From IMG/VR virus record IMGVR_UViG_3300042881_003808, positions 45,530-109,529 of that record: 64,000 bases of DNA; one strand, given 5' to 3'. Position numbers and translations under genes: made by a program. The notes beneath the pieces are model-generated. The model was not told the origin of the DNA. It saw nothing but the letters and a program-made list of their open reading frames with translations, and made no database searches. Shown in pieces: positions 21,496 to 37,397 of the stretch. Position 1 is the stretch's first letter, and every line of letters begins with the position of its first letter. Source of the DNA: a virus.

Positions 21496-24400
21496 ATGCA
21501 TATCGATGAACTGGAAAATTATAATTTAGCCGACGCTGTACGATTTCACGACGAGCTGAATCCTGGACTTTGGGGCAAAGACGAACATCTGCGCCCCGAA
21601 GTTCGTGAAGCACTGCTGCGCATTGCAGACGATTTTCGTGAATTTCTAGGTGTTAGTGATCTTGAAGTTCAAGACATCACTATTTCTGGCAGCAATGCTG
21701 CCTATAATTACACCCCCAACAGTGATATTGATCTACATCTAGTGGTCAATATTCCCGAGCTTGACGATGAAGTCTATCGCGAATTATTCAACGCGAAAAA
21801 ATATCAATACAACGATCAGCACGATATTCGTGTGCGCGACGCTGATGTTGAACTCTATGTGCAACCAGCCAATGATCCGCATATCAGCCAAGGCATCTAT
21901 AGCCTAGTAAACAACAAGTGGCTGTCAGTTCCCCGACGTCAACGAGCCAAGATAGATGACGACAGTGTGCGTCACAAGGCCGAAGATCTAGAAGCTAGAA
22001 TCAATCAGGCCATTGAATCTGGCGATCGTGAAACCATGGATCGCTTGTGGCAAAAGATCAAGGACATGCGCAAAAGCGGACTAGAACAAAAAGGTGAATT
22101 CAGTACAGAAAACCTAGTGTTCAAGATGCTGCGTGTGAACAAATTAATAGAACGTCTGCAAACAGCACGTCAAGCAGCACGTGATCAAGAACTCAGCCTT
22201 AGCGAAAGAAAACGCAAGAAGTCTCGTAAACGCTATGCATATGGTGGTTACTGGTATCCAGGCTACAGCTATTATGGCAGCGGTTCTGAAGGCAGTGACA
22301 GTGGTGGCGATGGCGGCGGTGAAAGTGTTCAAGAAGACGTAGGCTCAACCTGGGATGGAGTGAGTCCTACCACAAGAATGTTCACTAGCGAACAAGAACA
22401 CACTGAAAACAAAAACGTAATTGGTAAATTTGCTAGATTTGTGGCACAGCAGATAGGCATGAGCAAGTTGCCACGTATCCGTGTCACACGAGATCCAAAA
22501 TGGAGTTCCAAAAACGGTACATTTGGACACTATGATCAAAATACACAAACACTGACCATTAGTCTGGCCAATCGCCATATCATGGATGTGCTTAGAACCA
22601 TGGCTCACGAGCTAGTGCATGCACATCAGGATCGCGAACATGGCTTGCCTAGCACAGCTGGCAAGACTGGTAGTCCATATGAAAACGAAGCCAATGCGGT
22701 GGCGGGTCGTATCATGCGACGTTGGGCCAAGAAACATGGCAATATGTTTGATCAGCCTGCCACAGAAGACTATGATCCCAATGCCAGACCTCCAGGACCT
22801 GAAACCAAACCCACTATGCCAGCTGGCACTGTGAGAGTTGATGTTAGTGATGTGTATGACTGGTACAAACTAGGACAGCACATCAGTGACCTCGAAGGTC
22901 TAGGCAAACATGATTTTGGCAAAGGACCGCCTAGTGCTATTTTTAGTTTTGGTGACGAAGACACCGAACACAAATATATTAACAATCTGAAGCGCACTGG
23001 CCTTGATGTCACGGACATTGATCCACGCGATCCCAATCAGCCGCCAGGCATGAAGAAAATCAAAACAGATCCAACCTATAATGTTGATGAAGATTGGAAA
23101 AGCAGTCTAGGTGCAGCAGCCGCGGCTGCATGTATTGCAGGCACACCAGGCTGTGCTACCACTAACACAGATAGCAGTCCCACTGCTGATGTGCTAAGAG
23201 GTGTACAAACTGTAGGACGTACAGCACAGGCAGTAAAGGACATGGGCGTGGGTGGCGCCAAAGAAGAACTAATCAATCAACTTCGTGACAAACTGCGCGG
23301 TATACGTGAAGCCACTGGTTACATTCCCACAAAAAAACAAGCTCGTGATCCTAGATTCTCCATGGCCTTGACAAAGGATATTCAGCCAGGCCAGATTGGC
23401 AAGGAAGCAAACAAACTAAAGTTAGACACTGACAGTCAAGGTCATCCTGCGCTGTTAATGAAACGTCTTAACAATCTGCTGGAATCAGTTAAGACAGACG
23501 AACAATTAGACGAAGACGAACTGTTTGAACTCAAAATGAGTCCCAGCAATCTGGCCAAAATGGCCAAAGACATTGATGCTAGAGCTGGTCTAGAGTTTGA
23601 AATGTATGTGCCTAATGTAGACGCCGACGACGAGGAATTTGAATCCGAGCCGGATTACGGTGCCGACGAATATTTCCCTATGGGTCCAGGCTGGCAGAGT
23701 GATGTTATGGATTTCTTCCGTGGTGGAGATATGAGCAGTCCTAGAGTTCTTATTCAACGGGCAATTGATGAACTAAATGAAAATTTTTATGAGTGGGTTG
23801 GCGAGCAAGAAGAAGAGTTTTTAGCATCCAACGAAGGACGAGAACGAGCCATAGAAATCGCTACCAGCAATGTAAGCAGAGACGATTTTGAAACAGACGA
23901 AGAATATGAAGCTGCCGTTCGCGAATACCTGACAGACAATGAAGACGACATTAGAGATGAATTAATAGACGAATTCCGCGATGATCTTGATAGCAAGTTC
24001 GAAGAATGGCTAGACGATCAAGGCATTCGTATGATGGCAGATTTTGCGAGCGAATACGGTTTAGAATGGCCATATTGGACCGAGCCAGATGATTACAGCA
24101 GAGGCGGAGCAGACATCGACGACGTAGCACGAGACTTCCAAGATGCTGTTGGACGTCCGGTGAAAACTGGTGGTTATCACAGCGGTGCTTATAGTCAAAC
24201 CAATAACTATCGTGTGGAAACAGACAGTAGCTTGAGTGATCCAGACGAACCAGGTGATGCAGGCTTGGAGTTTATCAGTCCGCCCTTGACCATTCCTGAG
24301 ATGCTGGGAGATATCAAAAAGATCACTGCCTGGGCTAATCGTGTGGGTGCATATACCAATGACACCACTGGCCTACACATGAATATCAGTGTACCAGGGT

Positions 24401-26307
24401 ACAGCATGCAAAAGCTAGACTATGTAAAGTTGGCCATGTTCTTGGGCGACAACTATGTTCTAGAGCAGTTTGGTCGTGCAGGAAATACCTATTGCAAGTC
24501 AGCCCTGAATAAAATCAAAGCAGAAGTAAAACAAGATCCCGCAAGACTCAAAAACATGCTTCAGGCCATGCAGGGAGAATTAAACAGCATAGCCAGCAAA
24601 ATTGTTCATACCGGCAACACTGACAAATATACCAGCATCAACACCAAGGACAATCGTGTGGAGTTTCGCAGTCCTGGCGGCGATTATCTTGACATATTAG
24701 CCAACGATCCTGCACAGATCACAAACACACTGCTGCGCACAGTGGTAGCTTTGGATGTGGCCATGAAACCTGAAGCGTTCCGTCAAGAGTACATGAAAAA
24801 GCTGTACAAGACTCTCACACCAACGGAATTCACAGGCGGTCGAGGCGAGCGTCAAACTAGATTGGAATCACAGACCAACGAGGTCGCTGACCTGCTCAGC
24901 AAGTACATCGCAGGTGAATTGCCGCAGTCAGCACTAAAAAGCTTTATCCAGCAGATTAAGAAAAAGCGTGACGATAAGAAGCAGCCACCAGAAACGCAAA
25001 CACCTAGTCGTGATCAAGAGTTTTCAGGCACTTGGGAAATTGTGGCTCGTAATACCGACGAAGTAGTACGCCAATTTAGTGGTGTTGGTAATGCCATAAG
25101 AGATGCTGAAGTGTGGGCAAGAAGATGGGCAATGGATACCGGATATGATGATCCGTACTATGTGCGCCCTGTAATGCGACCAAGAACCGCGCCACCTGAA
25201 ACCTCCATTTATCAAATTGTAAACTACCAAGACGGTGAAGTGTTAAGTCCGGGACTAAACATGCCTTGGGTTTATGCTCGTGCTCTTGCTGATGATATAG
25301 CTCGGCGTCGTGGTATGGGTAGAGCCGACATCAGAATTGTTGACCTAGAAAACAATCAGACCTATAGTTTTGAAGGTAGACTGATACAGCCAAGTGTGAG
25401 AGCCACTGCCGGGGAACCTGTACCAGCTGGTAGTGTAGGTGGTGGATTCGCTCGAGCACCACATACCAGCATATATCAATTGATTGATAATAGAAATGGT
25501 CAAATAATGCTAGGCGGCGAAACAAGAACTTTTGCTGACACCGTAGAGAAGGCCAATATTTTAATGCGTGACTATAGGCTTACAGCTGATGATATTAGAA
25601 TTGTTGATATGTATACCAATACTGTATATGATATCAATGGTCGTCCTGTAAGTGGCAACAATGCTAATACTTCTAGCATAGATGGCGAGCAAAGCACAGA
25701 TGCCAACTACGAAATCATTGATCTTGAAACTCGTGGACCAGTTTTTAGATTCATTGCCAACACCGATCAAGAAGCACAGAGAAAGTTTATAGATTGGTTG
25801 GAAGCAGGTGATCGCTTTATTGGCCAGTATTATTGGCGTAGAATTGAAGGTCGTGGCATACCAGGGTCAACAGCAGAACTGCAACGACAGCGATCAGATC
25901 AGCAAGTACAAGGTTTTAGAGTCTCTTATACCGTTACCCATGACGATGAAGTTAGAAATAACACTGTGACTATTCAAGCCCGTAATGCTGACGCTGCAAT
26001 GGATGTTATGAGAACTAATTTACAACGGGCTGGATATGAGGTTCTTAGAATTGAAGCTGAACCTGTGGCACAAACTCTAGAGCCACCACCAGAAACAGTA
26101 GATATTTCAATGCCCGGTCAGGCTCGCGGAACAGAAAGCTTACCACCCGGCAACACTCGCTGGTTGATACTTGATCCAAACGACCGTGAAGTATATAGTT
26201 TTGTACATCGTAGTAATCAAGGCGAAGCAAATCAATATGCTGTGAACTGGCTAAGACAAAACGGTCTACTAGGCAGTGGCGAATTCATGGTGGTGCCAGC
26301 AAGATGA
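21496..26307 (+). CDS. giant polyvalent protein: NTase, zincin, amidoligase, repeats
   Basis: 1603 residues. Visible modules: (1) pol-beta-type nucleotidyltransferase, 1-230, with SGSNAAYNYTPNSDIDLHL (GS near 66, DxD near 78-80); (2) low-complexity Gly/Tyr/Ser linker, 240-275; (3) zincin peptidase with HELVH (371-375) and ENEANA (E396); (4) EDWKS plus an Ala-rich hydrophobic stretch, 532-556; (5) phage motif YIPTKKQARDPRF, 605-640; (6) amidoligase-like COOH-NH2 ligase with GLEFEM (698-703), GLHMNI (959-964) and NRVEFRSPGGD (near 1054), interrupted by an acidic insert; (7) six or so repeats of an IY(Q/E)I(V/I)-type unit, 1179-1603. The modules fit the polyvalent-protein concept of phage effectors. 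It overlaps the next gene by four bases. Confidence 0.8.
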   Translation: MHIDELENYNLADAVRFHDELNPGLWGKDEHLRPEVREALLRIADDFREFLGVSDLEVQDITISGSNAAYNYTPNSDIDLHLVVNIPELDDEVYRELFNAKKYQYNDQHDIRVRDADVELYVQPANDPHISQGIYSLVNNKWLSVPRRQRAKIDDDSVRHKAEDLEARINQAIESGDRETMDRLWQKIKDMRKSGLEQKGEFSTENLVFKMLRVNKLIERLQTARQAARDQELSLSERKRKKSRKRYAYGGYWYPGYSYYGSGSEGSDSGGDGGGESVQEDVGSTWDGVSPTTRMFTSEQEHTENKNVIGKFARFVAQQIGMSKLPRIRVTRDPKWSSKNGTFGHYDQNTQTLTISLANRHIMDVLRTMAHELVHAHQDREHGLPSTAGKTGSPYENEANAVAGRIMRRWAKKHGNMFDQPATEDYDPNARPPGPETKPTMPAGTVRVDVSDVYDWYKLGQHISDLEGLGKHDFGKGPPSAIFSFGDEDTEHKYINNLKRTGLDVTDIDPRDPNQPPGMKKIKTDPTYNVDEDWKSSLGAAAAAACIAGTPGCATTNTDSSPTADVLRGVQTVGRTAQAVKDMGVGGAKEELINQLRDKLRGIREATGYIPTKKQARDPRFSMALTKDIQPGQIGKEANKLKLDTDSQGHPALLMKRLNNLLESVKTDEQLDEDELFELKMSPSNLAKMAKDIDARAGLEFEMYVPNVDADDEEFESEPDYGADEYFPMGPGWQSDVMDFFRGGDMSSPRVLIQRAIDELNENFYEWVGEQEEEFLASNEGRERAIEIATSNVSRDDFETDEEYEAAVREYLTDNEDDIRDELIDEFRDDLDSKFEEWLDDQGIRMMADFASEYGLEWPYWTEPDDYSRGGADIDDVARDFQDAVGRPVKTGGYHSGAYSQTNNYRVETDSSLSDPDEPGDAGLEFISPPLTIPEMLGDIKKITAWANRVGAYTNDTTGLHMNISVPGYSMQKLDYVKLAMFLGDNYVLEQFGRAGNTYCKSALNKIKAEVKQDPARLKNMLQAMQGELNSIASKIVHTGNTDKYTSINTKDNRVEFRSPGGDYLDILANDPAQITNTLLRTVVALDVAMKPEAFRQEYMKKLYKTLTPTEFTGGRGERQTRLESQTNEVADLLSKYIAGELPQSALKSFIQQIKKKRDDKKQPPETQTPSRDQEFSGTWEIVARNTDEVVRQFSGVGNAIRDAEVWARRWAMDTGYDDPYYVRPVMRPRTAPPETSIYQIVNYQDGEVLSPGLNMPWVYARALADDIARRRGMGRADIRIVDLENNQTYSFEGRLIQPSVRATAGEPVPAGSVGGGFARAPHTSIYQLIDNRNGQIMLGGETRTFADTVEKANILMRDYRLTADDIRIVDMYTNTVYDINGRPVSGNNANTSSIDGEQSTDANYEIIDLETRGPVFRFIANTDQEAQRKFIDWLEAGDRFIGQYYWRRIEGRGIPGSTAELQRQRSDQQVQGFRVSYTVTHDDEVRNNTVTIQARNADAAMDVMRTNLQRAGYEVLRIEAEPVAQTLEPPPETVDISMPGQARGTESLPPGNTRWLILDPNDREVYSFVHRSNQGEANQYAVNWLRQNGLLGSGEFMVVPAR

Positions 26308-27881
26308 GAGCCAGCGAGTTTATTGTAGAATCAAAGATACCTGATGTGGTCTATCACGGCACGGCATCTGCCAACCTCACCAACATAATGAAACACGGTA
26401 TCAAACCCAAGTTAAATCGTTATGCATACTCCAATAGACAACACGGTGGCGGAATAGCAACAGGTTTAGAACTAGAGCCAGGTAAACGTAGAAGTGATTT
26501 AGAAACTATCAGCACCAGTGTGAACTTTGACAACAGTTTAGAGTATGCCAAATTGGGTGGCAGCACAGGTTCAGGCTCTCCTGGCGTGGTACTAGCGTTT
26601 CGTCCATTGCCCAGTGATAGCTTTGAAGAAACCGGCATGCCTGGTGAAGTTGTATTCCGCAATGCTATCTCTCCAGATAGACTACAAATAGTCTGGCCCC
26701 AACGACTAGCGGGCAAAGAAAAACAACTCGCACAAAAAGCCGAAAAGAAAAAACAATCAGGTGCTGAAAAAACACAGCAGATCAAAAGCATTAACCAGCA
26801 ACTCAAAGCCGCAGGTTCTAGTATAAGAATCAAGTCAACCAACCCTAATACTGCAAGAATTGCCATATGGTTTATGGATCCTGACAACCCTGTACAGGTA
26901 GGCAACACCAACATAGATGATCAAAATTTCGCAGTATTCTTGAAAAAAGAACTAGCTAACCCTGCACCCAACAAACAACGCTATTATGGTAGAACCAATT
27001 GGTTAAATGAATTCGCTCCTGAAGGATTTGAGCAATACAGTTTATACACCGGTGATGGTGTTAGAAATCATTTAGTTGATAAATTTTCGTCATTAAACGC
27101 AGCCAAGGAAGAAGTTGAGTTTATATGGGACTCAGATCCCGAAGCTCGTCTGGCTATATGGTTTATTAAAAATCTAAATGATGAAGTGGTGTGGTCCTAT
27201 GATCCACAGGAAATAGCGGATGCGCCAAGATATCAGTTTAGAAAAAAATCTGATGATCTTGAAGAAATGAATCGTAGAGGATTCCTAGGAGCCATGGGAG
27301 CAGGTGCAATGGCTGCTGCGGGAGTTCCCTCACAAGCAGCTAACAAGGTGGGACCACCCATGCTCAGTGCCAACATTGGTGCAGAAGAGGCTCTTCATCG
27401 TGCGGCTCGTGCTGCTGGCATACGTGGCGTGGAACTTGCGCAGTTTCTAGCACAGTGTTATCATGAGTCTGGCGGCTTTAAATACATGCAAGAACTAGGT
27501 GATCCACGTTATTTTCTACGATACGATCCTAGAGTAGATCCTGCCAAGGCACGTGTGCTAGGTAATGTAAAGCCAGGAGATGGTGAACGCTACAAGGGTC
27601 GTGGATTTATACAGATCACTGGCAGAGATAACTATCGTAGAGCCGGTGAAGCTCTGGGTCTGCCCTTGGAAGACCGGCCAGAACTCGCAGCTAGAATGGA
27701 TGTGGCAGCACGTATTGCAGTATGGTATTGGAAACAAAGAGTCAAGCCCAATGTGTCTAATTTCAATGACACTCGTGCGGTGACTCGGCAAATCAATCCC
27801 AACATGCGCGGTCTTGAAGATCGACATGAAAATTTCAAAGACTATAAAAAGGTCTTTAGTATGAATTGGAAAGCTGTATGA
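26304..27881 (+). CDS. tagged protein: ART-like domain plus GH19 lysozyme
   Basis: 525 residues. N-terminal tag MRASEFIVE; then VVYHGTASANLTNIMKHGI (H18-G19-T20), the first block of ADP-ribosyltransferase-like folds, extending to about 150. A middle region of two repeats (ARIAIWFMDPDNPV and ARLAIWFIKNLNDEV) follows. At 322 comes MNRRGFLGAMGAGAMAAAG, like a twin-arginine signal, then GH19 (355-525) with CYHESGGF (E388) and YKGRGFIQITGRDNY. An internal start at 27267 could yield the Tat-like lysozyme alone. Probably a virion-carried enzyme that opens peptidoglycan on entry. Confidence 0.78.
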   Translation: MRASEFIVESKIPDVVYHGTASANLTNIMKHGIKPKLNRYAYSNRQHGGGIATGLELEPGKRRSDLETISTSVNFDNSLEYAKLGGSTGSGSPGVVLAFRPLPSDSFEETGMPGEVVFRNAISPDRLQIVWPQRLAGKEKQLAQKAEKKKQSGAEKTQQIKSINQQLKAAGSSIRIKSTNPNTARIAIWFMDPDNPVQVGNTNIDDQNFAVFLKKELANPAPNKQRYYGRTNWLNEFAPEGFEQYSLYTGDGVRNHLVDKFSSLNAAKEEVEFIWDSDPEARLAIWFIKNLNDEVVWSYDPQEIADAPRYQFRKKSDDLEEMNRRGFLGAMGAGAMAAAGVPSQAANKVGPPMLSANIGAEEALHRAARAAGIRGVELAQFLAQCYHESGGFKYMQELGDPRYFLRYDPRVDPAKARVLGNVKPGDGERYKGRGFIQITGRDNYRRAGEALGLPLEDRPELAARMDVAARIAVWYWKQRVKPNVSNFNDTRAVTRQINPNMRGLEDRHENFKDYKKVFSMNWKAV

Positions 27882-28606
27882 AAATCACAGAATTTGTCAC
27901 GGAAGACTGGCAAAAGACCAATCGCAAGGACAAGACCTCGGGCATGAGCCGCAAGGCAGTTAAACAATACCGCCGTGAAAATCCCGGCAGTAAACTGCAA
28001 ACCGCTGTGACCACCAAGCCCAGCAAGTTGAAAAAAGGTTCTAAGAGCGCCAAGCGTCGCAAGAGCTTTTGTGCTAGAATGCGTGGCATGAAGAAATCAC
28101 GCACTTCAGCCAAAACAGCTAGAAATCCCAATTCAAATATTAATAAAGCACTGCGCCGTTGGAACTGCGAAAGCATTGAGCAAATGCAAGAGCTGGTAAT
28201 GATTGCCGAGCAAAAGATCGCTGCGTTGCGGCAAGGTGTGGCGGAAGATCAAGAAGATATCGTAGCCGTCATTGATGGTGTACGTTCGGATAGAACTTAC
28301 AACGATAGATATCACGCACACAATTCTTTATCAAAACTAGTGGGATATGGCAAAGCCAAGGTAGCAGAATTGTATATTAACGGCGAAAAAGTAGAACACT
28401 TTGAACTAGGAAAAAAATATATTGATTTTGAACCCAAGAGTCTAGGTTCAATGTCAGAGGCAGGTCCATTCTCATACGGTGCCAAGAAGCCTAGAAAAGG
28501 TAGTGTGGCAGATCTTGCTGCAAAGAAACGCCAAGAACAGGAAAAAGGCAAGCTGCCTGCGGAACCTAAAGACCATATGGTTGGCACAGCACGGATAATC
28601 AAATAA
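27878..28606 (+). CDS. tagged basic protein with Cys/Arg cassette
   Basis: 242 residues from ATG 27878 (overlaps previous stop). N-terminus MKITEFVTED fits the tag family. Residues 10-100 are strongly basic and include KRRKSFCARMRGMKK, NPNSNINKALRRW and a following Cys, a motif seen repeatedly in T4-like phage proteins. The C-terminal half is a mixed domain (KVAELYINGEKVEHFELG) ending in a Lys-rich tail. Possibly DNA-binding and head-packaged. Function unknown. Confidence 0.65.
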   Translation: MKITEFVTEDWQKTNRKDKTSGMSRKAVKQYRRENPGSKLQTAVTTKPSKLKKGSKSAKRRKSFCARMRGMKKSRTSAKTARNPNSNINKALRRWNCESIEQMQELVMIAEQKIAALRQGVAEDQEDIVAVIDGVRSDRTYNDRYHAHNSLSKLVGYGKAKVAELYINGEKVEHFELGKKYIDFEPKSLGSMSEAGPFSYGAKKPRKGSVADLAAKKRQEQEKGKLPAEPKDHMVGTARIIK

Positions 28607-28607
28607 A

Positions 28608-29144
28608 ATGAGAGCACAAGAATTTTTAAAAGAAGAAACAGGCAATGAGCAAGATTTAGAATCTCTCAAGGAAGCCTGCGAAAACTGGATGGAAATGTAT
28701 TTTGATGCTAATGACATCAATACAATTTTAACACATCCTTATAGTCAACAATTCAAGCAACCACCAGCCGGTATAGAAAAACTTTATCGTGGACTGGTAG
28801 TTGCCGGTGGAAAAGTAAAGGCGGTGCCCGGTAAAAGCAATAGAAAGTTTGTGGCCTATGCCACACACCCCTACGGTGCTGAAGCATTCTTGGCCAGTCT
28901 TGATGTTGGCGGTCGTAAAGTAATCATTGAAAAACAGTTTAACCCCGCTGACTTTGTGTTAGACTTCACAGGCCTGTATGAAAGTTTGTTTCCTGATCAA
29001 GGTCTTCACAATCGGTATGAAACTGAATACGAAGTTTGGATGCGAGCCACAAGATACTATCAGTCAGCGTCAGAGCAAGAAATAATTAAAGACACTGCCT
29101 GGGGTCAGACCGACGACGGTGAACCAGGTAGAGGAAATCTCTAA
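28608..29144 (+). CDS. tagged ADP-ribosyltransferase-like protein
   Basis: 178 residues. Tag MRAQEFLKE; then the R-S/T-E type pattern of mono-ADP-ribosyltransferases: KLYRGLVV (R61, strand 1), KFVAYATHPYGAEAFL (strand with Thr in the STS position, near 84-98), and YETEYEVWMRA (E138/E140/E142 giving the ExE end). T4 Alt is a packaged, ejected ADP-ribosyltransferase, so the pairing of tag and fold is suggestive. Catalytic competence uncertain because STS is replaced by ATH. Confidence 0.6.
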   Translation: MRAQEFLKEETGNEQDLESLKEACENWMEMYFDANDINTILTHPYSQQFKQPPAGIEKLYRGLVVAGGKVKAVPGKSNRKFVAYATHPYGAEAFLASLDVGGRKVIIEKQFNPADFVLDFTGLYESLFPDQGLHNRYETEYEVWMRATRYYQSASEQEIIKDTAWGQTDDGEPGRGNL

Positions 29145-29689
29145 TGAGAGCTTCTGAGTTTATCGCAGAAGGTGTGTCAGTGAGAGATCAGATCCTAGCT
29201 GATGTTAAAAAACACGGCGGTGATACCGATGATTACTTTGTAAGATACACCAGTGTTGATAAACTAGGCTTCAGCGCACGTCAATGGTTTTCTAGAACCC
29301 CCGATGTGGATCATCCAAAATTTCACGTGGACTTTATAGGACACGATGTGGGTCGATTGGCACTTTGGTTTTATCCCTTGAAAACTGCCATGGACACCAG
29401 TAGAACTCTGTATGGCAGTGAACAACCCTATGTATGGTTGGTCAAGCTCCGTCCTGATGCTTGGCTACAGACTGTCAAGCGTGGCGACAACACAGTTGAG
29501 CCGCCACCTCCAGGCAAACAAAGAGTGGGAATACTGCGCATGAGTCAACCTCCTGCTGCTATCTTTTTCCGGCCCGCATTTGATGTGATTGGTAGATATT
29601 ATGATTATGCCTCTAGACACAAAAGACATGGTGAAGTCAAAGGGCCTCCCCCGCCCACACTGTTCCAAAGAATTCGGGGTGAACGATGA
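29144..29689 (+). CDS. tagged protein, unknown domain
   Basis: 181 residues, ATG at 29144 overlapping the previous stop by one base. Tag MRASEFIAEG, almost identical to the T4 internal-protein peptide. The body has YFVRYTSVDKLGFSARQWFSRTPD, RLALWFYPLKTAMD and WLVKLRPDAWLQ, compatible with a divergent ART-like or other alpha/beta fold. A Pro-rich end follows. No catalytic motif I trust. Confidence 0.65.
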   Translation: MRASEFIAEGVSVRDQILADVKKHGGDTDDYFVRYTSVDKLGFSARQWFSRTPDVDHPKFHVDFIGHDVGRLALWFYPLKTAMDTSRTLYGSEQPYVWLVKLRPDAWLQTVKRGDNTVEPPPPGKQRVGILRMSQPPAAIFFRPAFDVIGRYYDYASRHKRHGEVKGPPPPTLFQRIRGER

Positions 29690-29709
29690 AAACATTTAGG
29701 AACTAGACC

Positions 29710-30807
29710 ATGCGCTTACACGAAATTCAACAACAGCGTAGACCGCATCTTTTTCTTGACATGGATGGTGTTCAAGCAGACTTCTTTTCAGCCTGGGCAC
29801 GCTTGTTTGGCAAAGAACGCTACAAAGAAATAGGCAATCGCGCACAACGCGAAGCCACTATCGCAGATCTCAATGCACGTGGTCCTGAATTTGTAGAAGA
29901 ATTCTTTACAAACTTGCCTGTGTTGCCTGGTGCGCAGACTCTAATTAAGTTTCTACGTGACAATGATATCAAGTACACAATTCTAAGTGCGCCGCTGCGT
30001 GGCAACGAAGCTGCTAGTATCCGCGGAAAGTTGGCATGGTTAGATCGCCATCATCCTGGCACATCTGCCACTGCGATCTTCACAGGCGAAAAACAACGCT
30101 ATGCCACTACCAATGGTGAACCAAATGTGCTAGTTGATGACTTCAAGAAATATGTGAATGCCTGGACCGCAGATGGTGGCATTGCTGTGCTGTATCGTTG
30201 GAATAATGTTGGCGCTGCAATTGAACAGTTGAAAAAGATCTATGGATTAGAGCCAGGTGCTCAGGTCAACAGTCTTGATGCATTACAAGAGGCAGTGGTA
30301 GGCACGCTGTATCCTAAAAAAATACTAGGCACTGCTAGAGTAGGTGACTTGTCTATTCCTATACACCGTCATCTATATGATCAAGCGCAGAGCCGTGGAA
30401 TTGATCTAAAAACCATAGAACGCACACTGCGTAGACTGCCCAGAATAGCCAGCAAACTCAAAAAAATTGAAGCAGGAAACAAGGTATGGGTTTACAACCC
30501 TCACGATGAAATTAGTCTAGGCTTTTTTGCACTGGACAGTGGTGGATATTTGTTGAACACAGTGATTCCCAATGCGCCACATCAACAGGGAGTTACTGAT
30601 GTGATACGCATGTATGAAGCAGACATTGAAGAAAATTTTGCAGACGGTAAAGTCAAGGGCCGGAGCCGGCCTGGGCGTGTAAAACGTGCGGGTGCCAGTT
30701 GTGATGGCAGTGTAACCAGTTTAAGAGCCAAGGCCAAAAAATACAGCGGCGAACGAGGTCGAATGTACCATTGGTGTGCAAACATGAAATCAGGACGTCA
30801 AAAATGA
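29710..30807 (+). CDS. HAD phosphatase fused to C-terminal basic cassette
   Basis: 365 residues. Residues 12-170: HAD 5'(3')-nucleotidase-like with FLDMDGVQADF (both Asp present), TILSAPL, and VLVDD (acidic motif IV). Residues 195-310: a second domain (RHLYDQAQSRGIDLKTIERT, KVWVYNPHDEISLGFF). C-terminus: SCDGSVTSLRAKAKKYSG then RMYHWCANMKSG, a two-Cys basic cassette frequent in T4-like phages. N-terminus MRLHEIQQQ is a weaker member of the tag family. May hydrolyse nucleotides or a phosphoester. Confidence 0.75.
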   Translation: MRLHEIQQQRRPHLFLDMDGVQADFFSAWARLFGKERYKEIGNRAQREATIADLNARGPEFVEEFFTNLPVLPGAQTLIKFLRDNDIKYTILSAPLRGNEAASIRGKLAWLDRHHPGTSATAIFTGEKQRYATTNGEPNVLVDDFKKYVNAWTADGGIAVLYRWNNVGAAIEQLKKIYGLEPGAQVNSLDALQEAVVGTLYPKKILGTARVGDLSIPIHRHLYDQAQSRGIDLKTIERTLRRLPRIASKLKKIEAGNKVWVYNPHDEISLGFFALDSGGYLLNTVIPNAPHQQGVTDVIRMYEADIEENFADGKVKGRSRPGRVKRAGASCDGSVTSLRAKAKKYSGERGRMYHWCANMKSGRQK

Positions 30808-31226
30808 GAGACCTACTTAATATACTAGAAGCAGTGAGCCGCGGCTGTCCTCCTGCAACACAAGACATTGATCTTAATCTAAAGAATCGTCAGAAGGCCA
30901 TAGAAGAATATCATTATGGCCCGCTGAATCCCAATGAACCCAATGAAGAATACTGGGCTGAACTAGCCGACAAATGGAATACCAGTGATATTGAATCTGT
31001 AAAACAGAATCGCTGTGGCAACTGTGCTGCATTTGACATCTCAGAAAAAATGCTGGACTGCATTGCCACTGGTATTGGTGCAGAACCCGGATCAGATCCA
31101 CATGATACCATAGATGCTGGTCAGCTAGGCTACTGTAAGTTTTTGAAATTCAAATGTGCTGCCAAGCGTACCTGCGATGCCTGGGTAGAGGGTGGTCCTG
31201 TGACAGGAGAAAAAAATGAGAGCTAA
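30804..31226 (+). CDS. conserved phage Cys-rich protein
   Basis: 140 residues, ATG 30804 overlapping the previous stop. N-terminus MRDLLNILEAVSRG has an I-L-E site. The body shows GPLNPNEPNEEYWAELADKW, then CGNCAAFD, CIATGI, YCKFLKFKCAAKRTCDAW, six or more Cys arranged as if to bind metal. It resembles a small protein widespread in T4-like marine phages. Function not known. It overlaps the next gene by 11 bases. Confidence 0.75.
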   Translation: MRDLLNILEAVSRGCPPATQDIDLNLKNRQKAIEEYHYGPLNPNEPNEEYWAELADKWNTSDIESVKQNRCGNCAAFDISEKMLDCIATGIGAEPGSDPHDTIDAGQLGYCKFLKFKCAAKRTCDAWVEGGPVTGEKNES

Positions 31227-31590
31227 AGAATTTGTAAAAAAGTCCGCCACTGAAGCTGAAATGCCCTGGAAGGATGCAGTGGATGCAGGTGCCATGACCA
31301 CACAACAGGGTGCCAAAATAGCTGCCAGTGATATTTCTCAAGCCATTGGTGATTTGGAAAAAAATCAAGCTGCCATTGGTAAAGAAATTGCCACACAAAG
31401 AGCTGCTGCCAATTCAGTGCCCTCCAACGTACAAGTGACCAGCATGAAGCCAGATGGCAGTTGGACCGGACGTGAGCTACCCAAAACTACTAAAATTGGT
31501 CCTATTTCAATTACACGAGGCAGCGGTAATCCTGTAGCCGGCGGTGCAGTGAAAAAAGCACCACCTGCCTATCCCCCAGGCGCCATCTAA
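31216..31590 (+). CDS. tagged small protein
   Basis: 124 residues starting MRAKEFVKKSATEAE, with GGAGA upstream. Ala-rich helical centre (ISQAIGDLEKNQAAIGKEIA) and a Gly/Pro-rich end (PPAYPPGAI). No known fold. Grouped with the tagged set by N-terminus and position. Confidence 0.65.
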   Translation: MRAKEFVKKSATEAEMPWKDAVDAGAMTTQQGAKIAASDISQAIGDLEKNQAAIGKEIATQRAAANSVPSNVQVTSMKPDGSWTGRELPKTTKIGPISITRGSGNPVAGGAVKKAPPAYPPGAI

Positions 31591-31655
31591 AAATACACCT
31601 GCTGATTTCAGGCCACTAAGTACCAGGCGAAAATTCGCTTTTTATAGGAGACTTT

Positions 31656-32594
31656 ATGGCAACCAAAAAACCGGCCAAAAAAACAGCAGCGCCAGCTAAG
31701 AAAGCAGCCGCTCCTGTAGCCAAAAAACCCGTGGCAAAAGCAGCCAAGGCCAAACCCAAGGCTCGAGCCAAACCCCGTGCGCAGGTAGTTGAAGCTGTGG
31801 AACAGGAACTGGAATTCAAACCAGTGAGCAGTTTCTTGAGCATGCATGCTGCCATGGATCCCGAGGCACAAGCAGCCATGATCGCAGAGCAGACCAAACG
31901 TGCGTTTGATGTTGAAGCCTATGTACAATTTAATGTGGCTCAAACACAGGTAGCAAGATCAATCGTTGAAGAAAACGTCACTGACGCCATGCAGAGCTGG
32001 GCTATCAATGCCGGTGGTAATCGTGAAATGATCATGCGTACCACAGACGATGTTTATCGCAATCGTCTCATGATGTTGAATCTGTTGAAGCCCGAGAATC
32101 CTGTGGAAGCAGCGTTTCAGGAAAGCATGATCAACAAGACCAAACTGGAATATCTGCAACATCGTAATGTCATGAACCGTCGCATGGCTGATATTGCATA
32201 TGAAATGGCCAATGCTATCAAGGCCATTGGTGCAGCGTCGGAGAAATTCTATAATGCCAACGAAGAAATGGCAGCATTTATCAACGACACCGCAGACGAA
32301 AATGCAGTATGGTTTGATGGTGAGCTGCGTAAAATGATGCGTGAAGCCTCAAATGTCACAAATGATCAGCGTATTCAGCACACCATGGAAGTGAGTCAGC
32401 TGCTAGCAAATGATGCACAAACAGGCCGTGCTCGTATTCGCGAAGTTGCAGAATTTGCACAGGGTCTTGGTGACAGTCTGCAGGAACTGCAAGAGTCAGG
32501 CAATGAACTGCGCGAAGAAGTGATTAATATTCGTGAAAAGATCGACGCAGGTCAACGCCGTATCGCTGACACCATTGTAAACAAGCGTAAATAA
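31656..32594 (+). CDS. H1-like Lys/Ala/Pro N-terminus plus helical domain
   Basis: 312 residues behind AGGAGA. Residues 1-47 are a histone-H1-like tail (repeats of AKK, AAP, KPVAKA). Residues 60-312 are almost wholly alpha-helical with coiled-coil potential (LQELQESGNELREEVINIRE). Could bind DNA through the tail and assemble through the coil, as a nucleoid or packaged-DNA protein. No hydrophobic export signal. A terminator lies about 115 bases downstream. Confidence 0.65.
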   Translation: MATKKPAKKTAAPAKKAAAPVAKKPVAKAAKAKPKARAKPRAQVVEAVEQELEFKPVSSFLSMHAAMDPEAQAAMIAEQTKRAFDVEAYVQFNVAQTQVARSIVEENVTDAMQSWAINAGGNREMIMRTTDDVYRNRLMMLNLLKPENPVEAAFQESMINKTKLEYLQHRNVMNRRMADIAYEMANAIKAIGAASEKFYNANEEMAAFINDTADENAVWFDGELRKMMREASNVTNDQRIQHTMEVSQLLANDAQTGRARIREVAEFAQGLGDSLQELQESGNELREEVINIREKIDAGQRRIADTIVNKRK

Positions 32595-32596
32595 AT

Positions 32597-32848
32597 GTGG
32601 CCCAGATACGTTGGTGCTGGCGTTGGTACGATGGACATACCGCAGTAGCTAGAAACAGTCTGCGTAGGTCCCGTATACTAAACCAGTTACGCCGTATACA
32701 TAGACAACACCCCGCTTTGACATTCACAGTCAAACGCGGGGAGTTTTTTATAGAAGCATGGTTTGTGGATACAAATGATCTGCTGATATTTGCTTTGATA
32801 TGGCCACCAACTTGTCCTGTGTGGGAGAAATTTGATGATATTTCCTGA
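32597..32848 (+). CDS. possible small protein spanning a terminator
   Basis: 83 codons from GTG 32597, just past the previous stop. The C-terminal half (LTFTVKRGEFFIEAWFVDTN, LLIFALIWP) reads like a real beta-rich protein. The N-terminal half is Arg/Trp-rich and less convincing. A strong terminator hairpin (32710-32749) lies inside the frame. Either a real gene read by occasional read-through, or a chance frame. Confidence 0.4.
   Translation: MAQIRWCWRWYDGHTAVARNSLRRSRILNQLRRIHRQHPALTFTVKRGEFFIEAWFVDTNDLLIFALIWPPTCPVWEKFDDIS
32710..32749 (+). terminator. rho-independent terminator
   Basis: CCCCGC TTTGAC (32710-32721), loop ATTCACA, GTCAAA, one bulged C, GCGGGG (to 32741), then AG and six T. 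Twelve paired bases. Would end transcripts of the H1-like gene. Confidence 0.8.
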
Positions 32849-33119
32849 TATGCCTAAACGTCAACACTGGTGGGATCAACACACTGAACCTGTGTCGCCA
32901 GTTGCAGTTGAAACCCACACTGTGGTTGTGCCAGAACTCACGGCTGTCAGCGCCGAAGAATGGTTTGCCAAACATTTTCCAGACACAGTGCCCACAGCTT
33001 TGCCCAGTCACCGTGAGCCTTTTGACTGGCGTAAAGATCCACGGGGCACAGCAGAATTTGCTGCGCTGTGTGGGTTCTTGATAGCATGGGTAGCCTACTG
33101 GTATCAAGTATCTCACTAA
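32835..33119 (+). CDS. small protein with C-terminal hydrophobic segment
   Basis: 94 residues from ATG 32835 behind GGGAGAAA. Polar N-terminus with FPDMPKRQHWWDQH, middle EEWFAKHFPDTVPTALP, and a C-terminal hydrophobic stretch (FAALCGFLIAWVAYWYQ) that could be a tail anchor. No family recognised. Confidence 0.6.
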   Translation: MIFPDMPKRQHWWDQHTEPVSPVAVETHTVVVPELTAVSAEEWFAKHFPDTVPTALPSHREPFDWRKDPRGTAEFAALCGFLIAWVAYWYQVSH

Positions 33120-33122
33120 ATA
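33116..33122 (+). promoter_or_regulatory. late-promoter-like box CTAAATA
   Basis: CTAAATA straddling the stop codon of the gene before and four bases before ATG 33127. It more likely serves the genes from 33342 on. Confidence 0.35.
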
Positions 33123-33126
33123 ATTG

Positions 33127-33342
33127 ATGCGCTTGAATGAACTATTTGAAAACTTGGTACAAAACTATGATCTATACCAAGCTCAGGTGAAAATACAGCA
33201 GCCTGGTTATCTAGGACGTATCAACGTCACGGTGAGTGCGCCCAGCGCCGCTGCGGCACGAGCACTGATCAAAGCACAGTATAATGTAAAAACACATGAT
33301 ATTGGCCAAGTTCGTCGCATGCCCGCAGGAAAGAAACTATAA
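33127..33342 (+). CDS. small protein, unknown
   Basis: 71 residues: MRLNELFENLVQ helix, then strands AQVKIQQPG and RINVTVSAPSAAAARALIKAQY, a beta-alpha pattern like small ribosomal or dsRBD-type minifolds. Last base shared with the next start. The N-terminus is a weak tag relative (LFE). Confidence 0.6.
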   Translation: MRLNELFENLVQNYDLYQAQVKIQQPGYLGRINVTVSAPSAAAARALIKAQYNVKTHDIGQVRRMPAGKKL

Positions 33343-33764
33343 TGCGTGCTAGAGAGTTTGTTCCAAGAGCCTGGTATGTAACAGTAAACGGTGATCCTGG
33401 CATTCTCACAAGAAACACCACACCTGGTGAACAGCCCTGGAGAGTCACTTGGTTTGATAGAGAAGATCATGAACCCAATGGTCACACGGACATCAGCAAA
33501 CTACAAGCCCGTCAGATTCAACGCGGTAACAACATAGAAGTTGTAGATCAAGACATAATTTACTATATAGATGCCGGTGAAGAACTTGCGGAAAACAGTT
33601 TGTTCTGGCGCCAATATCCTTGTACCAAAGACTGTTCAGGTCACCAAGCAGGTGATTCCTGGGCACAGGCACGCGGTATCACAGATGTAACACAATGCCC
33701 TCCTGGCAACAGCAACAGCTGGTGGGAAGGCTGCAAAAGCGAAGCCGAAAAACGTCCTTATTAA
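33342..33764 (+). CDS. tagged protein with four-Cys C-terminal motif
   Basis: 140 residues. N-terminus MRAREFVPRAWYVTVNG, then a beta-rich part (WRVTWFDREDHEPNG, NIEVVDQDIIYYID). The C-terminus has YPCTKDCSGHQAGDSWA followed by CPPGNSNSWWEGC, a four-Cys cassette recurring in T4-like phage proteins. Probably structural or packaged. Function unknown. Confidence 0.65.
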   Translation: MRAREFVPRAWYVTVNGDPGILTRNTTPGEQPWRVTWFDREDHEPNGHTDISKLQARQIQRGNNIEVVDQDIIYYIDAGEELAENSLFWRQYPCTKDCSGHQAGDSWAQARGITDVTQCPPGNSNSWWEGCKSEAEKRPY

Positions 33765-33767
33765 GCT

Positions 33768-35666
33768 ATGAAACAAAATGTGTATCTTTATGCTCCTAAC
33801 TTTGAGTCAGGACATGGAAATGTAACGTCGGTGTGGCTACCCTATACAGTGGGCTGTATCTGGAGTTACGCCATGACCGATCAAAGGCTACGAGATAACT
33901 TTAATTTGTGTGGTCTTGGGTTCCTGCGTGATCCAGTTGATCAAGTGGTTGATAGTCTTGACAACCCAGCGGTGTGTGGATTTAGTACCTATATCTGGAA
34001 CGAAAACTACAACCTTGCTCTCAGTAAGGCTATCAAGCAAAGGTATCCCAATTGCTTGATCTTGTTTGGTGGTCCTAATGTGCCCAATGAAGAAGAAGTT
34101 CTGCGACAGTGGCGCAAGGATCATGCCTGGATTGATGTATCCATTAGATACGAGGGAGAAATTGCGTTTAAAAATGTGTTGCATGATATTCTTGACAACA
34201 AGGTCAAAAGAGACTATGTGGCACATAGAGTAGAAGATCTTGAAGTGCCTAGTCCTTATCTAACCGGACTGTTTGACGACATTGTCAAAGACAAACAATT
34301 CATGTACTCCATGACCATTGAGACCAATCGTGGTTGTCCATTTCCCTGTACCTTTTGCGACTGGGGTAGTTTGACCTATGCCAAGATCAAGAAATTTCCC
34401 TTGGAAAAAGTTTTTGCAGAAATAGAGTGGTCAGGACGTAACCAAATTGAGTTTATTAGTCTAGCTGATGCTAACTTTGGCGTGTTTCCTGAGCGTGATC
34501 AAGCCATTGCCGAATGTTTTATTGAAACCAAGAAAAAATATGGGTATCCACAGCAGATCAGTTGTACATGGTACAAAAACTCCAATGAAGTAATTTTAAA
34601 CATAGCCGAGGATCTTACACGTCATGGCCTAAACCGTGGACTCACACTAAGTGTACAAAGCATGCACGAGCCCACGCTCACTGCTATCAAACGCAAGAAC
34701 ATGAAGATCAATGATCAGAGTCTGCTGTTTCAAGAATGCAATCGTAGACACATACCTTTTTATACCGAGCTGATTCTAGGCATGCCCGAAGAAACACTGG
34801 CCAGCTGGCGTCAAGGCCATTTGGATCTAATTGAAATGGGCCAGCATGGTTGTGTGTACATGGCTCCCATTGAGCTGCTGCGCAACGCAGAAATGACCAA
34901 ACAGATTGATCAGTACAAGATCAAAAGCACAGTGATATCTGACTATTGGACCTGTGCTCGCAGCGGTATCAGCGAGTGCCAACACATAGCCACGGAAACC
35001 AATACCATGTCCACTGATGACATGATAGATGCTACTATTTTTTCCTGGATGATAATTTCATTTCATCATCACGGCTGGACAGAGCTATATTCAAGATATC
35101 TACACAAGCGTGGCTGGAGCTACAAACAGATCTACGATAATCTTGAAACATGGTTAATGAGCCACCCTTACTACAGCCAACAAATAGCAAAGTTTAGAAG
35201 CACAGTGAGTGATTTTTACCATCACAGTAGAAGCATTGAATACTATGCTCTCTGGGAAGGCGTAAAAAACATGTATGTGGATAGACAACAACATCTTGAC
35301 AACATAGCAGCATGGTTTCAAACTCTTTGTCAAGATGACTGCTGCGATGAAATAATTGAACTACAAAGGCATTGGATAATTGATCCATATGGAACCAGTA
35401 AGAACACAGTGGAACTGCCCAGTAACTTGATCTATTGGATATTAGATCTAGAACCCGTGGTAACCAAATCCCCCATACAGTGTGAATTTTCCACTAGCCA
35501 AACCGAGTCATGGGCTAACCTAGAGGAGTTCCTGAGTTTTGTTGTGCTACGCAGAAAAGAAAGTTTTGGCAAAGCCATTGTTAATATTTTGCCGCAACAA
35601 ACACCAGCTGATTTTGAACTAAATATGGAATGTCCAATGACATTGTCAAACTTGTCTGTAAGCTAG
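33768..35666 (+). CDS. B12-binding radical SAM enzyme
   Basis: 632 residues. Residues 1-160: cobalamin-binding-type Rossmann domain (VCGFSTYIWNENYNLALSKA, LILFGGPNVP, DVSIRYEGEIAF), the order seen in BchE-like class B enzymes, without an obvious DxHxxG. Residues 180-420: radical SAM barrel, ETNRGCPFPCTFCDWG with C190-x3-C194-x2-C197, then LTLSVQSMHEPTL and YTELILGMPEET. Residues 430-632: helical extension. Likely a methyltransferase or ring-forming enzyme. Three bases after the preceding gene. Rare cargo for a phage. Confidence 0.85.
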   Translation: MKQNVYLYAPNFESGHGNVTSVWLPYTVGCIWSYAMTDQRLRDNFNLCGLGFLRDPVDQVVDSLDNPAVCGFSTYIWNENYNLALSKAIKQRYPNCLILFGGPNVPNEEEVLRQWRKDHAWIDVSIRYEGEIAFKNVLHDILDNKVKRDYVAHRVEDLEVPSPYLTGLFDDIVKDKQFMYSMTIETNRGCPFPCTFCDWGSLTYAKIKKFPLEKVFAEIEWSGRNQIEFISLADANFGVFPERDQAIAECFIETKKKYGYPQQISCTWYKNSNEVILNIAEDLTRHGLNRGLTLSVQSMHEPTLTAIKRKNMKINDQSLLFQECNRRHIPFYTELILGMPEETLASWRQGHLDLIEMGQHGCVYMAPIELLRNAEMTKQIDQYKIKSTVISDYWTCARSGISECQHIATETNTMSTDDMIDATIFSWMIISFHHHGWTELYSRYLHKRGWSYKQIYDNLETWLMSHPYYSQQIAKFRSTVSDFYHHSRSIEYYALWEGVKNMYVDRQQHLDNIAAWFQTLCQDDCCDEIIELQRHWIIDPYGTSKNTVELPSNLIYWILDLEPVVTKSPIQCEFSTSQTESWANLEEFLSFVVLRRKESFGKAIVNILPQQTPADFELNMECPMTLSNLSVS

Positions 35667-35917
35667 ATTGCCGCTGGGAAGGGCTTGCCCCAACCTATCG
35701 CGCCTGGGTCAACAATGAGCTGTTTACCGAACGCACTTGGATTTGGACTGAAAACTATATTGAAGAAATATTTCAAGTCAAGGCCATACCCGGAAAATAC
35801 CGTATTAGATTTGAGTTGGTACAGCCCTGTCTAGCGGACTTGATTTTTCTAGAAATGCGAGCATTGCACGGTCCAGTGCGTGTAAAAAGTGGTGGCATAT
35901 TTTTGATTGATTCTTAA
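35630..35917 (+). CDS. small beta-rich phage protein
   Basis: 95 residues from ATG 35630, inside the end of the radical SAM gene (37-base overlap). CRWEGLAPTYRAWVNNELFTERTW and YRIRFELVQP suggest a small beta-sandwich. A CTAAATA box at 35619-35625 lies five bases upstream. Similar short proteins occur in T4-like marine phages. May partner the radical SAM protein or be virion-associated. Confidence 0.65.
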   Translation: MSNDIVKLVCKLDCRWEGLAPTYRAWVNNELFTERTWIWTENYIEEIFQVKAIPGKYRIRFELVQPCLADLIFLEMRALHGPVRVKSGGIFLIDS

Positions 35918-35918
35918 C

Positions 35919-36095
35919 ATGAGAGCAAGAGAATTCATAGGCGAAGATGTATCAACTACCAGCGCCAGTATTGCCCCGGTTGCACAGAGCCTGGGACACA
36001 TGCCAATGATCAGTCGCATGGGCCGAGTGCCTACTGTGCATAAATATCAGACTAGAAAACCTAAACGGACTAAAAATGCTGGCAGAATCGCTTAA
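35919..36095 (+). CDS. tagged 58-residue peptide
   Basis: 58 residues: MRAREFIGEDVS, a Ser/Thr/Ala linker, and a Lys/Arg-rich end (YQTRKPKRTKNAGRIA). Tag plus basic tail is the layout of T4 internal head proteins. It overlaps dps by 20 bases and carries ATAAATA (36040-36046), a possible late box for dps. Confidence 0.6.
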   Translation: MRAREFIGEDVSTTSASIAPVAQSLGHMPMISRMGRVPTVHKYQTRKPKRTKNAGRIA

Positions 36096-36519
36096 AACTA
36101 TATTGGCTTCAAGCTACGCTTATGTGATCAAAGCGCAGTTTTTTCATTGGAACGTAGAAGGGCCTGACTTTGCTCAACTGCATGATTTCTTTGGCAAGAT
36201 CTACGAAGAAGTCTATGACAATTCCATTGATCGCTGTGCTGAATTCATCAGAGTACTTGATGACTACGCTCCGGGTAGTTTTGAACGATTCGCGGAACTG
36301 TCTATTATATCTGGACAAATCAAAGTACCTCGTGCTCGACTCATGCTGGAAGAACTATTACAAGATACAAATAATATGTTGGCATTGTTAAACACTGCGT
36401 TTCAAGAAGCAGATGCAGATCAACAGCAAGGTATTGCTGACTTTCTGGCCGAACGAATTGACGCCATGGGCAAACATCGTTGGATGTTGAGATCGTTTCT
36501 CAAGGAAGCACGAGCATGA
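36076..36519 (+). CDS. dps: Dps-like ferritin
   Basis: 147 residues, four-helix bundle of the Dps family. It has QFFHWNVEGPDFAQLHDFFG with H24 and H36, then NSIDRCAEF with D52 and E56, the complete intersubunit ferroxidase set. Normal Dps length is 155-165; the N-terminal DNA-binding tail is absent. It would store iron and detoxify peroxide, or protect DNA. It lies inside the tagged block and overlaps both neighbours by a few bases. Confidence 0.85.
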   Translation: MLAESLKTILASSYAYVIKAQFFHWNVEGPDFAQLHDFFGKIYEEVYDNSIDRCAEFIRVLDDYAPGSFERFAELSIISGQIKVPRARLMLEELLQDTNNMLALLNTAFQEADADQQQGIADFLAERIDAMGKHRWMLRSFLKEARA

Positions 36520-37397
36520 ACGATATCTACACCATCCTAGCCAGACTGGAAGCCATACAAGAAGGCAGTACCACGCCAACTAAACTGTCAAAAGATCTCA
36601 ACCCGCAACAAAAAGCAGTGCCTCAATTGCCTGCTCTGTTCAAGCCTAATAAGATTTCAGTTCTGGGTGCCAAAACTGATCCAGATCATCCCATGCGTGG
36701 TTACGCAGTGGGTGCAAGTGAAAGTGCTGAAACCGAAGTAGAAGAAGACTGGCGCAGTGCCGCAGCAGCAGGTGCATTGGCCGCTGCTAACCTTCTGGGT
36801 ACACCGGCTCAAGCAACAGAACCTGTGAAACCAATCACAGTAGCGCATGTGACCATAGATGGTGAAACACGCACATACAATCTTGGTGATAGATTTAAAA
36901 GTTCCAAAGAAGCAGAAAAGTTTATCAGCGATGTACTAGATCGTCAAGGGCTGTCAGGTTACAGTCTTGACATCAAGACCGGCGTGCCAAAGAACACAGA
37001 CAGCACAGCAATGAAAGAACAAATAATCGCAGCCGAAGACATGCTGGGCAAAATACGTCGTGACTTAGCAGATTACCTCCGCAGCGTAGAAGATGAACTA
37101 GTGGGACGAGATAGATCACTGATACGCAAGGCCAAGCAAGAACTCGCCAAACCTGACATTGAAAAGTTTCTACCAGTCAAAGTTATCAGCACCGACGATG
37201 GTAAAGAACTCAGAATACATGGCAACGAAGACGATGGATTTAGAATCAGTGTGCATGAAAAAATGCTACCCACTGCATTTGAAAGCCTTGAAGAAGCCAG
37301 CATGGCCTGCGAAATGTACTGTGCTCGTAGGCGTGGCCAGCCCATGGAAGCCAATCCAGACTACGTGGATGAGCGCGACAGCACAGCAAAGCATTAG
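36516..37397 (+). CDS. phage protein with Ala-rich hydrophobic segment
   Basis: 293 residues from ATG 36516 (overlaps dps stop). N-terminus DIYTILARLEAIQEG with an I-Q-E site, then KAVPQLPALFKPNKISVLG and DPDHPMRGY, a block I recognise from T4-like phages. At 77 comes VEEDWRSAAAAGALAAANLL then GTPAQAT, nearly the same as the EDWKS segment of the giant protein. The remainder is helical (EDMLGKIRRDLADYLRSVED). Possibly packaged and proteolysed. Function unknown. Confidence 0.68.
   Translation: MNDIYTILARLEAIQEGSTTPTKLSKDLNPQQKAVPQLPALFKPNKISVLGAKTDPDHPMRGYAVGASESAETEVEEDWRSAAAAGALAAANLLGTPAQATEPVKPITVAHVTIDGETRTYNLGDRFKSSKEAEKFISDVLDRQGLSGYSLDIKTGVPKNTDSTAMKEQIIAAEDMLGKIRRDLADYLRSVEDELVGRDRSLIRKAKQELAKPDIEKFLPVKVISTDDGKELRIHGNEDDGFRISVHEKMLPTAFESLEEASMACEMYCARRRGQPMEANPDYVDERDSTAKH

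Follow-up and report, generated by a model that had tools for sequence, protein, structure and literature searches.

Comparison with known systems

The internal proteins IPI, IPII and IPIII of phage T4 carry a short N-terminal peptide, with a basic residue at position 2 and an EFI-x-E core, in front of bodies that are unrelated to each other. The available part of PMC9026906 states that the T4 protease gp21 cuts after L/I-X-E, and that in IPIII residues 4 and 7 serve targeting and residues 8 and 10 processing. In the T4 record, ipII and ipIII start with MKTYQEFIAE, and the leader of ipI is longer. Replacing E by D is reported to prevent the cut in IPIII. We analysed a 64,000-nucleotide stretch of viral DNA (the window), positions 45,530 to 109,529 of IMG/VR record IMGVR_UViG_3300042881_003808, which is a linear piece of 109,529 bases. 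A block of genes in the window encodes proteins that share a nine-residue N-terminal tag, MRAxEF(I/V/L)xE. The virus is a freshwater relative of phage T4; the DNA polymerases of Sinorhizobium phage Phosso and Agrobacterium phage Atu_ph07 are 50% and 46% identical to its own. Our analysis indicates that the tag is quite likely a T4-type capsid-targeting sequence, which would direct proteins to the head and be trimmed there by a gp21-type protease.

The window tag is similar to that of the T4 internal proteins in its shortness, basic residue 2, core and unrelated bodies. Moreover, a gp21-type protease and head genes in T4 order belong to the same virus, as seen in the nearly identical IMG/VR record G025. 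It differs from them in its length of nine residues, its MRA rather than MKTY start and its many more bodies, and also in that xE occurs at internal borders and that copies of the capsid arm stand behind the tag. The T4 protein Alt, a packaged ADP-ribosyltransferase (ART), is likewise an enzyme with an N-terminal leader; ART-like folds are weakly suggested for the tagged proteins at 26304 and 29144.

In the giant phages SPN3US and phiKZ, too, a gp21-related protease cuts head proteins after E. They differ from the window virus in their AxE or SxE motifs, mostly long propeptides and paralogous bodies. SPN3US gp53 and gp54 have an identical 15-residue N-terminus on diverged bodies, according to the accessible part of PMC5694885. 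Polyvalent proteins are presented, in the part of PMC5512222 consulted, as multidomain proteins likened to polyproteins and thought to be delivered with phage DNA, with ART, lysozyme and peptidase domains. Their release is ascribed to embedded peptidase domains, whereas the cut motifs of the window fit the prohead protease instead. The virions of cyanophages S-CREM2 and S-SCSM1 similarly contain NMNAT/cytidylyltransferase proteins with FLTE or FLKE starts, DUF6321 and capsid-arm-like proteins. Their tag spelling, MKxFxxFLxE, differs from the window tag, and the available parts of PMC10665884 and PMC9602691 do not describe the proteins as tag-directed. A literature search of titles and abstract openings, with subscription journals mostly outside its coverage, found no description of the tag or of prohead-protease sites between cargo modules.

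Occurrence and conservation of the tag

The seven tagged ATGs listed by an earlier examination of the letters without database searches (the sequence-only reading) were all confirmed (Table 1). Residue 7 is V in the tags of 27878, 31216 and 33342. The tags end in (L/I)xE in four of the seven and in VxE in one, and E is absent in two, so the spelling proposed earlier keeps its final E in five. Among the weaker relatives also proposed, 30804, 33127 and 36516 carry (L/I)xE soon after the start, but 29710 starts with MRLHEIQQQ, in which L-H-E occurs only at residues 3–5 and nothing is found at the usual cut place of the tag. No minus-strand open reading frame (ORF) of at least 40 codons in the window matched the tag patterns, and a related pattern had no match in the remaining 45 kb of the record.

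Composition predicts 0.0032 strict starts (M[RK]AxEF[ILVM]) in the window (866 ATGs opening at least 35 codons). Among 81 loci, namely the window and 80 others chosen by DNA polymerase similarity and not by the tag, 28 distinct strict starts were found, where composition predicts 0.057. Of these 28, 24 have E at residue 9, and residue 7 is I in 18, V in 9 and L in 1. In a crude set of genes for these 81 loci, from which an overlap filter dropped some window genes, M precedes [RK]AxEF[ILVM] near the ORF start in 24 of 27 occurrences. The loose tag pattern occurred 96 times in 21 IMG/VR records, against 13 times for the reversed pattern, an excess that comes partly from selection because many of these records were picked for the tag. 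The sequence-only reading had named related genomes as a place to look for the tag; it was present there in 17 of the 81 loci and in other IMG/VR records, but without excess in Phosso and Atu_ph07.

In a frame-blind scan of IMG/VR with the DNA pattern of MRAxEFIxE, at least 120 stretches matched. Among the matches listed, 145 of 146 open onto at least 40 codons or the contig edge, and an upstream in-frame stop lies within 60 codons in 142 of 146. The 146 listed matches comprise 142 distinct 27-mers, in which alanine is spelled by four codons and isoleucine by three; only silent variation is informative at positions 1, 3, 5, 6, 7 and 9, which were set by the search pattern. Since the 27-mers are mostly distinct, it is the peptide that is conserved rather than a DNA segment. 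The varying tag codons also rule out shared DNA as the origin of the common start.

Clustering of at least 203 distinct tagged proteins gave 36 clusters, of which 29 are singletons; the Atu_ph07 singleton is clearly a match by chance, and multidomain proteins chained together a cluster of 55. The bodies behind the tag are unrelated to each other, as the sequence-only reading had claimed. In the 29144 family the tag residues are kept in three relatives, and the linker behind the tag varies in length. The tagged group met most often among the matches listed is a tandem of two small tagged proteins (about 134 and 125 residues), which adjoins spanin-like genes at L040:10711-11492 and similar loci. 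When two tagged families of L040 were searched by tblastn, named phages gave no match.

Head genes, prohead protease and capsid leader

In the tag, F, I/L/V and E stand at positions that correspond to those of T4 ipII and ipIII, and the EFIAE core is common to both. The gp21-like protease that the sequence-only reading had suggested looking for elsewhere in the genome was not found in the record of the window, a fragment without match to gp21 or gp23 profiles, but it is present in G025. This record has 2 mismatches to the window in 19,901 compared bases over the tagged block and an identical set of tags. Its gp21-type protease was identified by profile match. The neighbours of the protease are a portal gene, two small genes before the protease, a scaffold gene and a capsid protein gene (assigned by eye and by likeness to profile-matched relatives), in T4 order. 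Two profile searches found the protease in 14 of 30 IMG/VR records, and in 13 of the 14 tag-bearing records of at least 140 kb. We take PF03420 to be the gp21 family.

The capsid proteins of tag-bearing records have a short leader ended by LxE, in 7 of 7 IMG/VR records read and also in G025, where the end is YLKE/NATAG (a slash marks a predicted cut). The leader ends seen were YLKE, YLRE, YLAE and LLAE. They lie about where the T4 gp23 leader ends (FLTE/A), by a loose alignment in which the exact gp23 cut residue is our assumption. The capsid sequence behind the leader LxE is NASAGSTVSGNIATL or similar, and short tagged proteins read EFIAE/NATAGATGSGSIATV, thus copying the capsid post-leader sequence. 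The tag E aligns on the capsid E in L146, L162, L079, L069, L134, L193 and L186 (E 1e-4 to 0.5, small database). The window member of this capsid-arm-copying family is the protein at 35919.

The letters of these small proteins differ by phage group, each resembling the capsid protein of its own group. S-CREM2 gp160 (L246) and S-SCSM1 ORF97 have a stretch like their own capsid after LLTE/ and FLAE/, respectively, as judged by eye. Both are reported or labelled as virion proteins (for S-CREM2, in the available part of PMC10665884).

Module borders inside longer proteins

A cut at xE would predict that a module found alone behind a tag has xE in front of it wherever it lies inside a longer protein. 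The border queries began after the tag, and E was never inside the match. After tagged orthologues, near-duplicates, starts less than 30 residues from the frame start and 5 low-complexity starts were dropped, 66 internal module starts were left. P1, the last residue before the border, is E in 57 of them, P3 is I/L/V/M/F in 54, and both hold in 54. At interior offsets 10, 15 and 20, [ILVMF]xE was found in 0 of 60, 0 of 61 and 1 of 58. An earlier count (both residues in 64 of 110) was discarded for its shifted registers and recounted with these stricter rules. The site is in the majority for 9 of 17 module families. Of the 35 distinct contexts of the CTKDCSGH module, 34 carry [ILVMF]xE shortly before it, and in 30 the E occupies the commonest place.

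In the window, cuts are predicted after 20291, 27266, 30633 and 33593. (L/I)xE occurs just three times in the 525-residue protein at 26304: in the tag, at the border before the TAT-like/GH19 module and at one further place. The KWSxKYKRSINC module, inside a longer protein here, stands alone behind the tag in L169, L184 and L203.

The border counts, compared with the interior offsets, make xE look like a general cut code for polyprotein cargo. These internal borders are an addition to what the sequence-only reading had seen. We lean, by a little, towards a polyprotein cargo in which one N-terminal address would serve the whole precursor, gp21 would cut at (I/L/V/M)xE, and the modules would enter the host with the DNA. 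Such cargo would be a property of freshwater phages of the T4 superfamily and, with another tag spelling, of marine cyanophages, and the released set would vary and comprise small Cys-containing, basic and enzymatic modules.

Virion proteomes of cyanophage relatives

DUF6321, the module of 27878, has matches in 335 phage records, mostly named Synechococcus or Prochlorococcus phages, and sits in longer proteins in all seven phage records read. S-CREM2 gp137 carries it (56% over 91 residues), with MNE just before the module, and S-CREM2 gp156 has 38% identity to the nucleotidyltransferase part of the 1603-residue protein of the window. Both gp137 and gp156 are in the published S-CREM2 virion proteome, as given in the accessible part of PMC10665884.

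By the same part of that proteome, 5 of the 6 proteins (from 219 S-CREM2 genes) with F[ILVMF]xE ending at residues 8–12 were in virions, against 47 of 213 others (p 0.003); this motif was picked after looking at the data and the test is exploratory. With the middle motif [FYLIM][ILVMF]xE the counts were 6 of 12 against 46 of 207 (p 0.04). The tagged virion protein of S-SCSM1 is an NMNAT, which starts with MKSFLQFLKE. Cyanophage virion proteomes thus give modest support to the link between tag and head. S-CREM2 gp12 (L244:7704-10313), listed there as a virion protein and annotated as Cas9, has SFMAE/A near residue 26.

Features of the tagged block

Table 1. Tags, variant starts, predicted internal cuts and the adjoining multidomain protein in the window.
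Feature	Position	Strand	Remark
Predicted internal cut LEE/	20283..20291	+	Before KWSxKYKRSINC module of cytidylyltransferase-like protein 19398-20456
Untagged multidomain protein of 1603 residues, nucleotidyltransferase-like start	21496..26307	+	Directly upstream of tagged block; candidate polyprotein
Tag MRASEFIVE/	26304..26330	+	525-residue protein; weak KptA/ART-like match, TAT-like segment, GH19
Predicted internal cut LEE/	27258..27266	+	Precedes MNRRGFLG(TAT-like)-GH19 module; related module directly behind tag in L015
Tag MKITEFVTE/	27878..27904	+	DUF6321 protein
Tag MRAQEFLKE/	28608..28634	+	178-residue protein
Tag MRASEFIAE/	29144..29170	+	181-residue protein
Predicted internal cut IEE/	30625..30633	+	Before NFADGK module of NT5C-like protein 29710-30807; scored as L127 copy
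Variant start MRDLLNILE/A	30804..30830	+	IxE is residues 7-9; relatives MRN(L/Y)(I/L)N(L/M)(L/I)E/A
Tag MRAKEFVKK, cut-site E absent	31216..31242	+	124-residue protein
Variant start MRLNELFE/N	33127..33150	+	
Tag MRAREFVPR, cut-site E absent	33342..33368	+	140-residue protein
Predicted internal cut LAE/	33585..33593	+	Before CTKDCSGH module of 33342-33764; sole (L/I)xE in that protein
Tag MRAREFIGE/	35919..35945	+	58-residue basic protein, diverged member of capsid-arm-like family
Longer variant leader MNDIYTILARLEAIQE/G	36516..36563	+	293-residue protein; (L/I)xE in ..LEAIQE/G

Pfam cut-offs were passed by GH19, NT5C and DUF6321, and by Ferritin for the untagged neighbour 36076. The sequence-only reading had described the cargo as lysozyme, ART-like proteins and small basic peptides. 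The lysozyme (GH19) of 26304 is secure, the ART assignment is weak, and the tagged proteins, with lengths of 58 to 525 residues and net charges of +11, +26, −9, +7, +5, −6 and +8, are not uniformly basic.

PARP, RES and Tpt1 share the ART fold. The 26304 protein has a PTS_2-RNA match under the Pfam cut-off and a PDB phmmer match to Tpt1 (E 0.006). The model of 29144 (predicted local distance difference test, pLDDT, 72; 4 sequences) gave no significant structural match, with a best Foldseek E of 0.24 and Z up to 4.0 to RES/PARP chains. These are weak hints of an ART-like fold in both. The 28608 protein had no match in the PDB search, and its single-sequence fold (pLDDT 36) was unusable; to our eye it presumably has an ART-like look.

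The 1603-residue protein holds HELVH by sequence and has no Pfam peptidase match. The cytidylyltransferase-like protein 19398 is weakly similar to S-CREM2 gp154 (E 0.003 over 24 residues). A TAT-like segment, NRRGFLGAMGAGAMAAAG (27267-27325), sits midway along the 26304 protein, immediately ahead of GH19 (Pfam TAT_signal E 0.019, under the cut-off), and the same type of segment is found directly behind the tag in L015:2992-3612. Trimming after xE would leave the segment of 26304 as an N-terminal export signal. Within the block, 31656-32594 encodes an untagged 312-residue protein with a K/A/P-rich histone-H1-like start. The gene after the capsid-arm-like one, in the window as in many relatives, is Ferritin/Dps-like (36076-36519; Pfam Ferritin; PHROG DNA binding protein), and radical SAM proteins at 33768-35666 and 38736-39782 flank the end of the tagged block. 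The motif TATAAATA, presumably the T4 late promoter, is absent from the window, where 1.49 are expected; this says little for a divergent phage.

Discussion

The modular capsid-targeting signal of T4 type and the gp21-type cut proposed by the sequence-only reading are well supported by the sequence, through the T4 core, the head genes of G025, the capsid mimicry and the borders. The virus fits the T4-type features that could be checked in its DNA, except for the two tags without E. In the mechanism that we propose, the front of the tag, M-R/K-x-x-E-F, would bind the prohead core, and its end, [I/V/L]xE, would be the cut site of the phage's own gp21-type protease. The tag would be trimmed during head maturation, and the mature protein would begin after E. 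Where [I/L/V/M]xE stands between modules, one targeted precursor would give several mature proteins, and the gain of xE at a border may be enough to turn a module into cargo. Modules that copy the capsid arm may lodge in the shell. The tagged proteins would otherwise sit in the head beside the DNA and enter the host with it. Packaging, cutting and ejection are what we infer for the window virus, ejection with the DNA by analogy with T4. Two features look new: the cut code reused within long proteins, and the capsid-arm copies behind the tag.

The common start might instead be a scar of recombination or duplication, in which 3′ parts were swapped behind a shared 5′ end and the peptide has no function. 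The bodies are indeed exchanged behind one start and the tagged genes adjoin each other, but the silent codon variation of the listed matches, the retention of tag residues in the 29144 family while the linker length changes, and internal borders that keep xE at P3 and P1 only all speak against a scar, which we regard as very improbable. A tag that sends proteins elsewhere, to the tail, the membrane, a phage-made compartment or a host protease or chaperone, with a convergent likeness to T4, is also unlikely, if less so. A destination is not readable from sequence alone, and residue 9 is K in 31216 and R in 33342, from which it follows that binding and cutting may be separate functions. However, the sequence that follows the tag mimics that of the capsid protein after its own LxE, nearly all of the large tag-bearing records have gp21, and tagged S-CREM2 proteins were found in virions, by the part of the proteome available.

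The alternative that deserves most weight accepts head targeting and leaves the internal xE uncut, with E being the first residue of the module or a feature of a flexible linker. We consider it a real but minority possibility. The motif is short, and 8 of 17 module families do not have it in the majority (six of them singletons, one from the Atu_ph07 chance match). In SPN3US, moreover, by the accessible part of PMC10052503, 13 of the 14 cuts identified take off N-terminal propeptides and the remaining one a C-terminal propeptide of the protease. On the other hand, the constraint falls on P3 and P1 only, in sites that span several unrelated modules and preceding proteins, and offsets 10–20 inside the modules together gave 1 of 179.

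Several observations, besides the two tags without E and the module families lacking the site, weigh against head targeting or against cutting at internal borders. The nearest isolates, Phosso and Atu_ph07, encode the protease, yet the tag is absent from the matching place between Clp and the DNA polymerase, and its genome-wide counts do not exceed those of the reversed-pattern control (6 against 6 in Phosso, 3 against 1 in Atu_ph07). The tag-bearing record G007 (199,683 bases) matches neither the protease nor the capsid profile. Interior offset 25 gave 25 of 88, which was explained post hoc: the 13 examples inspected were either the border of the CTKDCSGH module, found at this distance in one tagged protein, or a VIPE that one tagged family conserves. 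Both border sets contain related upstream sequences more than once, and the sites and contexts are partly non-independent. The virion data come from distant cyanophages only. Even there, the looser [ILVMF]xE in residues 2–15 did not single out virion proteins in S-CREM2, with 15 of 47 against 37 of 172 (p 0.10), by the same available part of its proteome. In S-SCSM1, with the motif fixed beforehand, 1 of 2 tagged proteins was in virions against 47 of 280 others (p 0.31), for a virion set taken from record labels (48 proteins, where the accessible part of PMC9602691 states 45).

If the T4-type targeting and the internal cutting both hold, the first residues of a protein and its internal xE borders would reveal the head-carried proteins of uncultured T4-like phages from their sequence. 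Many proteins now called hypothetical would then become testable candidates for early takeover of the host and for counter-defence. This suggests a simple trade of cargo among phages, which would need a nine-residue address and a three-residue cut rule.

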